The notes beneath the pieces are model-generated. The model did no database searches, was not told where the DNA came from, and saw only the letters and a list, made by a program, of their open reading frames with translations. Below are positions 37,693-40,791 of a DNA stretch of 50,392 bases, in pieces; positions within the stretch are counted from its first letter, which is position 1; the number at the start of each line of letters is the position of its first letter. A program made the translations under genes and the position numbers. Source of the DNA: Candidatus Bathyarchaeota archaeon (lineage in GTDB: Archaea; Thermoproteota; Bathyarchaeia; 40CM-2-53-6); assembly GCA_005884195.1 (NCBI GenBank), contig VBBP01000049.1:1-50392 (forward strand). Direction: 5' to 3'.

Positions 37693-39234
37693 TTGCGGCT
37701 AGTCGAATGTGTTCCCAACTTCAGTGAAGGCCAGAAGAACGAGATCATCGAATCCATCGCGGACGCCATAAGGAGAACGCCTGGGGTAACGCTCCTCGAT
37801 GTGGAGTCCAACCCTGATCACAACCGGTCCGTGATAAGCTTCGTGGGTGAGCCCGGACCCGTGAAGGATGCTGCTCTGGCAGCAAGCCAAAAGGCGATCG
37901 AGCTCATCGACCTGAGACATCACAAGGGAGAGCATCCAAGAATGGGCGCAGTTGATGTTGTCCCTTTCGTCCCATTGTCCAGTGTGACGATGGAGGAGTG
38001 CGTTTCGCTAGCCCGTGCTTTCGGGCAGGAATTCGCTGAGAAATTTCACGTGCCTGTTTTCCTCTACGAGGAGGCGGCTACGGTTCCTGAGAGACGGAAT
38101 CTCGCAGATGTCCGAGAGGGCGAGTTTGAAGGCCTCCAGGACAAGATCGGCAAAGATCCTACGAAGAAACCGGACTTTGGCCCCGAGAAGATTCATCCCT
38201 CTGCGGGTGCGACTGCTGTTGGAGCCCGGGAGATACTAATCGCGTTCAACGTCAACCTTGGAACAAGCGACCTAAACATCGCGAAGAAGATCGCCCACCA
38301 ACTCCGAGCAAAAGATGGCGGACTAGCATATGTGAAGGCTCTCGGGTTCGAGCTGAAAGAGCGCGGAATTGTTCAGGTGTCAATGAACCTGACGAATTAT
38401 CGCAAGAGCCAATTGTTCAAGGCTTACGAGCTGGTCAAGCTCTTCGCTGATCGTTACGGCGTCCCAGTTGTTGGGAGCGAGGTCGTCGGGCTCGCACCGA
38501 TGGATTCCCTTGTCGATTCAGCAGAGTTCTACTTGCGCTTGGAGAACTTTAGCCGGAACCAAGTCCTAGAGAGGAAGCTCTTCGCTCCTAGACCTTCAAC
38601 ACTGACCGACCAGAGCTTGGCAATATTCAGCGAGGAAGTCGCGTCCAAAAAGAGCACTCCAGGCGGAGGAAGTGTCTCCGCATACATGGGAGCACTCGCC
38701 GCAGGACTTCTCTGCATGGTCGCCCAGATAACGCTGCGAAAGAAGGAACCGCCGCCCGGCGCAGAAAAACTCAACGATGTGGTCAAAGAGGGCGAGGCTC
38801 TCCGCCAGAAACTCCTACGCCTCGTGGTAGAGGACACGGAAGCCTTTGACCTGGTGATGAGAGCGTTCAAGCTCCCGAAGGACCAACCTGAGACTCGAAA
38901 GAAGGCGATAGAGGAATCAACCATCAAAGCATCCGAGATACCACTCTCAACACTCGACTGCTCAGTCAAAGTTCTACGATTAGCTCACGAGGTCGCAGAA
39001 AAAGGGTCGACCAATGCGCTCTCCGATGTCGTCACCGCTGTCTCTGCGGCGCGTGCGGCCGTTGAAGGAGCCGCAAGCAACGTCTTGATCAACCTTGCAG
39101 GTCTTAGCGACCAGAAGTACGTGGACAAGATCTCAAGACAGGTCTCTGATCTTCGGAAGGAAGCGGCTCAGCTTGAGGAGCGGGCTGGAAAGCTTGTCGA
39201 GTCTAGAATTAAGAATCCTAGGATTCCAGCCTAA
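37693..39234 (+). CDS. Formiminotransferase-cyclodeaminase fusion
   Basis: The 513-residue protein carries both steps that transfer the formimino group to tetrahydrofolate and deaminate it. The formiminotransferase domain (1-300) opens VECVPNFSEGQ and includes the catalytic-His region KGEHPRMGAVD; the cyclodeaminase domain (about 312-500) has STPGGGSVSAYMGALAAGL. Fusion is known in animals and some microbes. The rest of the histidine-degradation pathway is not in the window. Start TTG at 37693; it overlaps the convergent HxlR gene by 17 bp. Confidence 0.93.
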   Translation: MRLVECVPNFSEGQKNEIIESIADAIRRTPGVTLLDVESNPDHNRSVISFVGEPGPVKDAALAASQKAIELIDLRHHKGEHPRMGAVDVVPFVPLSSVTMEECVSLARAFGQEFAEKFHVPVFLYEEAATVPERRNLADVREGEFEGLQDKIGKDPTKKPDFGPEKIHPSAGATAVGAREILIAFNVNLGTSDLNIAKKIAHQLRAKDGGLAYVKALGFELKERGIVQVSMNLTNYRKSQLFKAYELVKLFADRYGVPVVGSEVVGLAPMDSLVDSAEFYLRLENFSRNQVLERKLFAPRPSTLTDQSLAIFSEEVASKKSTPGGGSVSAYMGALAAGLLCMVAQITLRKKEPPPGAEKLNDVVKEGEALRQKLLRLVVEDTEAFDLVMRAFKLPKDQPETRKKAIEESTIKASEIPLSTLDCSVKVLRLAHEVAEKGSTNALSDVVTAVSAARAAVEGAASNVLINLAGLSDQKYVDKISRQVSDLRKEAAQLEERAGKLVESRIKNPRIPA

Positions 39235-39571
39235 CAAGCTCCGTCCTATTGTCAGCCCAAGCCATCAACGGCGCCACCAACATCGTCAACTCGTTCCCTT
39301 CTTTGGTTAGATGATATTCTACTCGCGGTGGGATTTCGGCGAAGGCTTGTCGCTTAACTAGTCCTGTTTGCTGAAGATTCCTTAGAACTTCTGTCAGCGT
39401 CTTTGCGCTTATCCCTGGAAGTTTTTCGGCGAGCTTGTTGAAACGCAGGGTCCCATCGTTTCCTAGCAGCGCTAATACGCATAGGGCCCATTTCTTTCCG
39501 ATGATCTCAATTATTCCTTCGCATGGACAGGGGCATATGCAACATGGTTCTCCTTCTCTTTGTCTAACCAT
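39218..39571 (-). CDS. HxlR-family regulator with a Cys-cluster N-terminus
   Basis: The 117-residue winged helix has the HxlR core: GIIEIIGKKWALCVLALLG, LRFNKLAEKLPGISAKTLTEVLRNLQQ and a wing with PRVEYHLTKEG. Before it lies CCICPCPC (residues 10-17), five Cys where most family members have one or two. HxlR/YodB/HypR proteins sense electrophiles or oxidants through that Cys; five here could sense thiol stress or bind a soft metal. It is divergent from a Cys-rich peptide gene and shares a promoter region with it. Confidence 0.92.
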   Translation of the reverse strand: MVRQREGEPCCICPCPCEGIIEIIGKKWALCVLALLGNDGTLRFNKLAEKLPGISAKTLTEVLRNLQQTGLVKRQAFAEIPPRVEYHLTKEGNELTMLVAPLMAWADNRTELVRLES

Positions 39572-39583
39572 TCCGTAAACCTA

Positions 39584-39640
39584 GTTACTCGTTAGGTACT
39601 TCTTGAGTTAAATACTTCACTTTGGTAACTAATGTTACTT
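39584..39640. promoter_or_regulatory. Divergent HxlR / Cys-peptide promoter with GTTACT repeats
   Basis: A perfect dyad GTAAC-taat-GTTAC is at 39625-39638, and the hexamer GTTACT occurs at 39584-39589 and 39634-39639, exactly 50 bp apart. Between them, TTAAATAC (about 39608-39615) can act as TATA-like box in either direction. The repeats would cover both transcription starts, as expected for a regulator controlling itself and the opposite gene. Confidence 0.55.
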
Positions 39641-39658
39641 ACAGAGGTGAAGTGTGAA

Positions 39659-39745
39659 TTGAGTTGTTGCTGCTGCGGACCCGGCTGCGGATGCGGCGGG
39701 ACCATGGAACGAACACAGGAGACCGACAAAAACCAGACCGCGTAG
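39659..39745 (+). CDS. 28-residue cysteine-rich (metallothionein-like) peptide
   Basis: A TTG at 39659, nine bases after a strong ribosome binding site (GAGGTG at 39644-39649), opens a 28-codon frame ending TAG 39745. The peptide is Met-Ser, then four Cys (C3-C6), GPGCGCGG (C10, C12), then a polar tail with ERTQETDKNQTA. Six Cys in twelve residues suggest a soft-metal or thiol buffer. Divergent placement from an HxlR with its own Cys cluster supports a real, regulated gene. Unknown family. Confidence 0.6.
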   Translation: MSCCCCGPGCGCGGTMERTQETDKNQTA

Positions 39746-39891
39746 ACAAGTCGAGCATTTTGCTCTCGTCGCGCAGTTTGTACCCCCTTTTTTCTTCCAC
39801 GGACCGGGACCCTGCAATAGTGGCCTGCCAATTTTTCCAACTGACCTAAGAACATCCTTGCACGCATAGTTGCATTTGACGAGGATCTGAG

Positions 39892-40791
39892 ATGGTGTTG
39901 TATTCAGAAGAGGGCTCACTCCGACCGACCCCGCCTTTCGATTTTGCAAAATCGCTAGACTTTCTAGGAATGTTTCCACCTATGCGAGAAGACCAAACTG
40001 TGAACGAGCTGTCCATGACTAAAGCAGTCCGGGTCGGGGGCCGAGCCATAGTGTTCCAGTTGAAACCGACCGGAACAATCAAGATGCCTGGGCTAAAGTT
40101 CACGCTTTTTGCCGACCATCCTTTCTCCCGCGGACTAACGGAGGTGGTGATCGATAGGATCGCATTCTTCCTCAGCCTCTCAGATGATCTGGATCAGTTC
40201 TATCGCACGGCGATCAACGATTCCAACTTTTCGCCAATCCTTCAGAAGCTCTACGGGCTACACCAGGTCAAGTTCCTCACTCCCTTCGAATGCGCCTGCT
40301 GGGCCGTACTCTCACAGAGAAACCAGTTGAGCGCCGCACAGAAAGCAAAACAGGCATTGCTGGAGCGTTTCGGCACAAGCCTTGAGGTGAACGGTCACCA
40401 GTACCGGGCCTTCCCGGAGCCTGGCCAGCTAGGGGAAGCCTCCAAACAAGAGTTGAAGGGCCTAATCAGACATGAGCGTAGGGAAGAGTATCTAGGCGAA
40501 ATAATCAAGGCGTTCAACCAGGTTGATGAGAGATTCCTGAGAACTGCCAGCTATGACAAAGTCGAAGAATGGTTGAAGAATATCAGAGGGATAGGAGAGT
40601 TCTCCGCGAAACTCATTCTCCTAAGAGGTCTCGGCAGGATGGAGAAACTAGCAGTAGAGAAGCGACTGATGGCAGCAGCGGGCAAGGTCTACGGAAAACC
40701 AATGACAACTCAGAGACTTCATGTCATCGCGGAAAAATATGGGAAATGGAAGGGCTATTGGGCCTATTACCTTAGAACCGCGAGCCCATAG
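39892..40791 (+). CDS. HhH-GPD DNA glycosylase (AlkA-like)
   Basis: The 299-residue protein has an N-terminal AlkA-like beta domain and a helical HhH-GPD domain with FLTPFECACWAVLSQRNQLSAA and the hairpin LKNIRGIGEFSAKLILLRGLG. Such enzymes remove alkylated purines from DNA. The catalytic Asp expected a few residues after the hairpin is Glu here (KLAVEKRLMAAAG); I recall the same Glu in a subgroup, so activity is plausible but not certain. Upstream is the Cys-rich peptide gene on the same strand. Confidence 0.88.
   Translation: MVLYSEEGSLRPTPPFDFAKSLDFLGMFPPMREDQTVNELSMTKAVRVGGRAIVFQLKPTGTIKMPGLKFTLFADHPFSRGLTEVVIDRIAFFLSLSDDLDQFYRTAINDSNFSPILQKLYGLHQVKFLTPFECACWAVLSQRNQLSAAQKAKQALLERFGTSLEVNGHQYRAFPEPGQLGEASKQELKGLIRHERREEYLGEIIKAFNQVDERFLRTASYDKVEEWLKNIRGIGEFSAKLILLRGLGRMEKLAVEKRLMAAAGKVYGKPMTTQRLHVIAEKYGKWKGYWAYYLRTASP

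Follow-up and report, generated by a model that had tools for sequence, protein, structure and literature searches.

The window analysed here, a stretch of 50,392 nucleotides, comes from a 1.92-Mb Bathyarchaeia draft genome. It contains a gene for an HxlR-type regulator and, on the opposite strand, a very short gene for a Cys-rich peptide, both diverging from a common promoter. The features of this locus are as follows:

39218-39571, minus strand: HxlR/DUF24 winged-helix regulator, 117 aa (PF01638)
39575-39588, no strand: HxlR-side candidate operator dyad GTAAACCTAGTTAC, 3 nt from the HxlR start codon
39608-39617, no strand: central TATA-like element TTAAATACTT; TAAATAC in 16/16 genomes, position constant in all but one
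39625-39638, no strand: peptide-side candidate operator dyad GTAAC-TAAT-GTTAC, 9 nt past the TATA core
39644-39650, plus strand: Shine-Dalgarno (SD) sequence GAGGTGA of the micropeptide; kept in 16/16 genomes, with a single G-for-A change in G005
39659-39745, plus strand: gene of a 28-aa Cys-rich micropeptide, starting at TTG; present in all 16 genomes whose DNA upstream of HxlR is intact, with synonymous bias in its core
39788-39797, plus strand: C-then-T run after the micropeptide stop, a probable archaeal T-rich terminator that would end a short monocistronic transcript

The 16 genomes are those with an intact HxlR gene and upstream DNA, namely that of the window and 15 relatives; all of the latter are drafts, assembled in most or all cases from metagenomes, and their sequences are not independent.

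The two genes

The regulator matched PF01638 with 91.2 bits (E 3.7e-26, cut-off 20.8) in a Pfam profile search, which identifies it as a winged helix-turn-helix protein. The ArsR/SmtB profile HTH_metalloreg (NF033788) gave only 18.1 bits against a cut-off of 55. Its N-terminus, MVRQREGEPCCICPCPC, carries the Cys cluster that the initial annotation had ascribed to it. Five Cys are grouped there (C10, C11, C13, C15 and C17), and the corresponding motif, EPCCxCxCPC, is present in all 16 genomes. Matching solved structures are PDB 7bze (HxlR) and 4a5m (HypR/YybR). In the alignment, C15 is the counterpart of the redox Cys in HypR/YybR (4a5m) and HxlR (7bzd), lying before the I-G-x-K-W helix, where a sensing Cys is expected. 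C17 occupies the position of Lys13 in Bacillus subtilis HxlR. Formaldehyde sensing by the latter uses the Cys11-Lys13 pair, which forms a methylene bridge (PMC7835342); since Lys13 is replaced by C17, this type of mechanism was ruled out for the archaeal protein. In a tree of 67 HxlR proteins, the soil set to which the window belongs formed one clade (100/99), the nearest neighbours of which were weakly resolved.

The micropeptide, MSCCCCGPGCGCGGTMERTQETDKNQTA, is encoded from the TTG at 39659 to the TAG at 39745. As first described, this frame has 28 residues, a ribosome binding site and six Cys, all located within the first 12 residues; it contains neither His nor aromatic residues. Longer in-frame versions could begin at ATG 39632 or GTG 39647. 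The TTG is favored because in relatives the distance from the first base of the SD sequence to a start codon is always 12-16 nt. The start codon itself varies (TTG, ATG, GTG or CTG) and is found at this distance in any frame, so that the coding frame shifts relative to the SD sequence from one relative to another while the latter is conserved. Translation is therefore what has been retained. In-frame length differences also occur, such as seven additional residues in G008. When the six peptides closest to one another are compared, the 17-codon core shows 6 variable sites, 5 of them at third positions, and pairwise pS ranges from 0 to 0.38 against 0 to 0.054 for pN. Finally, no other SD-led frame in the window contains 5 or more Cys within its first 20 codons, and no such frame occurred in 100 first-order Markov windows.

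The micropeptides of the set are 17 to 35 aa long and contain 6-8 Cys; Cys makes up 26% and Gly 20% of their residues, and one aromatic residue and one His were counted in total among 18 peptides. This composition is metallothionein-like: very small size, Cys above about 20%, CXC and CC motifs, and few aromatic residues or His. No family, and hence no described metallothionein family, was matched in Pfam at E 0.01 (37-aa form) or in NCBIfam at E 0.1. The Cys content is maintained across relatives while the order and spacing of the Cys drift, a pattern that suits a thiol peptide binding metals or electrophiles better than a folded enzyme. Because the residues between the Cys vary, tblastn with the window peptide alone missed about half of the relatives, which were recovered by reading the intergenic DNA directly.

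T-runs resembling the one at 39788-39797 occur in most relatives. Further downstream, a gene for an 8-oxoguanine/3-methyladenine glycosylase-like protein (39892-40791), scoring far under the family cut-offs, directly follows the micropeptide in the window genome only.

The shared promoter

The HxlR start codon and the SD sequence of the micropeptide are separated by 66-72 bp among the 16 genomes (90 in G018). The TATA-like element in the center probably serves both directions, judging from archaeal promoter geometry. It is flanked by the two dyads, which lie at fixed offsets across the 16 genomes. The initial annotation had noted the GTAAC-N4-GTTAC dyad, which was located at 39625-39638 and holds its position in relatives, and a second GTTACT. 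The latter is indeed present; rather than standing alone, it forms half of the second dyad, at 39575-39588. In relatives this HxlR-side dyad reads GTAAC-N3-GTTAC, with an N4 spacer in the window; it is exact in 9/16 genomes and has at most one mismatch in 14/16. The peptide-side dyad (GTAACT..GTTAC) is exact in 7/16. Its first half-site is retained in nearly all genomes and its 3'-half is degenerate in about half of the relatives, which counts against the operator model. Altogether, the 16 intergenic regions contain 53 GTAAC/GTTAC words, where shuffling led to an expectation of 2.3.

Transcription in archaea usually starts about 25 bp from the TATA element; each dyad should therefore overlap one start site. 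From this arrangement, HxlR probably represses both genes through the two dyads, one per gene.

A wider GTAAC/GTTAC regulon was considered and rejected. The dyads are not enriched genome-wide, either as exact matches (7, against 12 for the reversed control) or with one mismatch (20 against 52). The circuit thus looks local, and offers no regulon from which function could be deduced. One related sequence, GTAACCTGGTTAC, was found in the same genome about 11 bp upstream of the ORF of an HxlR paralogue (G000:C17:48307-48319), where no Cys-rich partner was seen.

Conservation of the pairing

The initial annotation had proposed looking for the peptide frame beside HxlR in close genomes. A Cys-rich micropeptide occupies the same divergent position in all 16 genomes with intact DNA upstream of HxlR. 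A retained HxlR lacking the frame, which the initial annotation would have counted as refutation, was thus not encountered, and both dyads keep their places. In G014 (93% complete), HxlR is a pseudogene and both promoter and micropeptide are missing, with the flanking FTCD and DNA glycosylase genes intact. In this sole informative case, regulator and micropeptide were lost together. The gene downstream of the micropeptide differs between relatives and has the opposite orientation in G006, G007, G008, G011 and G012. The micropeptide gene and its divergent pairing with HxlR are almost certainly real.

In four relatives (G017, G004, G002 and G015; loci L107, L117, L109 and L119, respectively), a cassette lies within the promoter. 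It carries a second, different Cys-rich micropeptide together with an orphan gene whose product (MSVTRLLRK...), about 153-181 aa long, has no Pfam match; the cassette reaches up to about 850 nt beyond the HxlR start (1250 in G004). The ancestral-type micropeptide persists downstream of it as a second copy in G017 and G004. At the HxlR locus, close copies were found only in these four genomes; G014 has a decayed copy, and a distant homologue lies elsewhere in G012. The N4 dyad region of the window (39625-39650) matches the left end of the cassette, yet the window micropeptide is of the ancestral type. It is as though recombination between two copies of GAGGTGAAG had removed a cassette here.

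From 31 further Bathyarchaeia loci, related HxlR genes were collected, with 44-58% identity to a soil-type query. In their products, CXCP is usually all that the N-terminus has of the cluster, and in a few the first Cys is missing; C10, C11 and C17 would therefore have been gained in the soil lineage. A divergent Cys-rich small ORF, defined as lying within about 175 nt and having at least 3 Cys in its first 30 residues, faces HxlR at 25/31 loci, against 34/310 control windows drawn at random from the same loci and not restricted to intergenic DNA. These partners were grouped with the soil micropeptide by position and Cys content, not by homology, and are of several types. Sixteen have a Cys/His-rich head and a coiled-coil-like tail. 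Five (L091, L094, L095, L102 and L103) form a conserved small protein, MCxxxCxxPEKLxxxPxxCxxxQIxECHPNMKxHPC, of which the L091 member had no Pfam or NCBIfam match. The others include short Cys peptides and two thioredoxin-like proteins (PF13192 tested for one). By eye, three of the class HxlR genes face a methyltransferase-like ORF. The initial annotation was right in the coordinates and description of the pair, and had overlooked both the class-wide pairing and the presence of two candidate operators, one per gene.

Outside Bathyarchaeia, relatives of the HxlR of the window adjoin genes for MerA, heavy-metal P-type ATPase, thioredoxin-like/TlpA-like or DsbD-like proteins. The neighboring mercuric reductases, in L062 (Nitrosarchaeum), L146 and L153, matched TIGR02053 with 570 and 554 bits against a cut-off of 454, the third being cut by the locus end. 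No report linking HxlR with mercuric reductase was found in the literature searched. In the window genome, the best MerA match reached 318 bits against the same cut-off, short of the mercuric reductase that marks a mer operon.

A putative sensor-and-buffer circuit

The locus is likely to be a sensor-and-buffer unit of some kind. This was the initial proposal, for thiol-reactive agents or soft metals, and the conserved pairing, the dyads and the MerA, P-ATPase, thioredoxin-like and DsbD-like neighbors of relatives speak for it; the transcript, the binding of HxlR to the dyads, the agent and metal binding are predicted parts of it. More specifically, the locus may be an autoregulated divergon, in which a thiol-based HxlR sensor-repressor and a micro-metallothionein-like peptide share one promoter; we give this version an even chance of being correct. 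Reduced, ligand-free HxlR dimers would occupy both GTAAC/GTTAC dyads over the presumed start sites, keeping both genes low. The N-terminal Cys cluster would capture a soft thiophilic metal, Cu(I), Hg(II), Cd(II), Zn(II) or As(III). Metal-loaded HxlR would then leave the DNA, allowing synthesis of the short transcript and translation of the micropeptide, the six to eight thiolates of which would sequester the metal until the signal drops and HxlR rebinds. DNA binding, repression, the ligand and metal binding are all deduced here from sequence and comparison.

A metal is favored as the ligand because HxlR has gained Cys, its partner resembles a metallothionein and its relatives lie beside MerA and P-ATPase genes. 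Against this, the DUF24 regulators that have been characterized respond to oxidants and electrophiles instead of metals (PMC6943732). The genome itself also lacks a MerA over the cut-off. The case for a metal is about evenly balanced. It is possible, although somewhat doubtful, that the circuit is a class-wide archaeal metal response, in which DUF24 proteins became soft-metal sensors by adding N-terminal Cys, each with a fast-evolving Cys-rich microprotein.

The same divergon might instead answer to an oxidant or electrophile (quinone, aldehyde, hypochlorite or reactive sulfur), with C15 forming a disulfide or adduct as in HypR/YodB and the peptide serving as a sacrificial thiol pool. This agrees with the position of C15, which matches that of the redox Cys in HypR and HxlR, and with the use of that Cys for electrophiles or oxidants by described DUF24 members (PMC7835342, PMC6943732); moreover, the divergent partner is thioredoxin-like in four relatives and DsbD-like in one. 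However, five clustered Cys exceed the need of a one- or two-Cys switch, a gene-encoded 28-aa peptide would be an unusual thiol pool, the MerA and Zn/Cd-type P-ATPase genes adjoining related regulators suggest metals, and the loss of Lys13 excludes the Cys-Lys formaldehyde mechanism. We consider such a signal rather unlikely, yet a serious alternative. The peptide could also be a partner of HxlR, acting as a metal donor or anti-regulator, or a carrier of its cofactor, instead of a bulk buffer. Both are Cys-rich, always occur together and were lost jointly in G014, but the invariant cluster of HxlR contrasts with a freely varying Cys pattern in the peptide, which better fits loose metal binding and makes this role improbable.

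A Cys-responsive leader peptide attenuating the downstream gene might be suggested by the run of four Cys codons close to the beginning of the frame and by the T-run past the stop. That gene is not conserved between relatives and is convergent in five; there is therefore nothing in common to attenuate, and this candidate was rejected as very improbable. A precursor of a modified (RiPP-type) peptide would likewise be short, rich in Cys and Gly and quick to vary; no evident maturase, protease or exporter lies nearby, as judged by Pfam for the neighbors in the window and by inspection for those of relatives, and we find this origin just as hard to credit. As for a chance frame with no protein product, the length is indeed below that used by gene callers. 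The conserved SD sequence, the moving start and frame, the synonymous bias, retention in 16/16 genomes and the empty Markov control leave this a negligible prospect, and it was rejected.

If the metal-responsive divergon is correct, Archaea would have metallothionein-like metal buffering under a dedicated repressor, through peptides overlooked because they fall below gene-calling length. The sensing repertoire of the HxlR/DUF24 family, redox and electrophile signals, would widen to include metals. On the class-wide reading, the metallothioneins of the soil lineage, as short as 17 residues, would rank among the smallest that are genetically encoded and, within the literature searched, would be the first described in archaea. 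The peptide, HxlR and the 70-bp promoter would also offer a simple experimental handle on stress biology in soil Bathyarchaeia, a subject so far unstudied. No archaeal metallothionein or comparable archaeal regulator-peptide pair was found in the literature searched, the coverage of which leaves out many journals; this agrees with the initial annotation, which knew of no described archaeal system so arranged.

Several known systems resemble parts of the locus. HypR, YodB, CatR and HxlR of B. subtilis have in common with the regulator the winged-helix DUF24 family and the redox Cys at the C15 position, whereas the archaeal protein has five invariant N-terminal Cys and no Lys at the position of HxlR K13, and its predicted target is a Cys-rich peptide instead of a reductase or azoreductase. 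At the archaeal MerA loci (Nitrosarchaeum L062; L146 and L153), the HxlR proteins are 52-53% identical to that of the window and have the CXCP motif; they adjoin mercuric reductase, whereas the window genome has the micropeptide and no MerA over the cut-off. The micropeptide is roughly half the size of SmtA. It is comparable in length, high Cys content and CXC motifs to the copper metallothioneins of Neurospora (26 aa, 7 Cys) and Agaricus (PMC4755600), but has CCCC and CC runs, other spacing and no homology to them. In the smtB-smtA divergon of Synechococcus PCC 7942, a repressor gene and a metallothionein gene diverge about 100 bp apart, with the operator over the promoter (PMC8790569). The present locus resembles it, and AzuR/nmtA of Anabaena, in its divergent regulator and Cys-rich peptide and in the candidate operators predicted at the common promoter. 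It differs in having an HxlR/DUF24 regulator instead of ArsR/SmtB, an archaeal host and a micropeptide with no Pfam family. On our best reading, the locus would be an autoregulated divergon that works like the cyanobacterial smtB-smtA, in which the regulator is of the HxlR (DUF24) type and its partner a micro-metallothionein.
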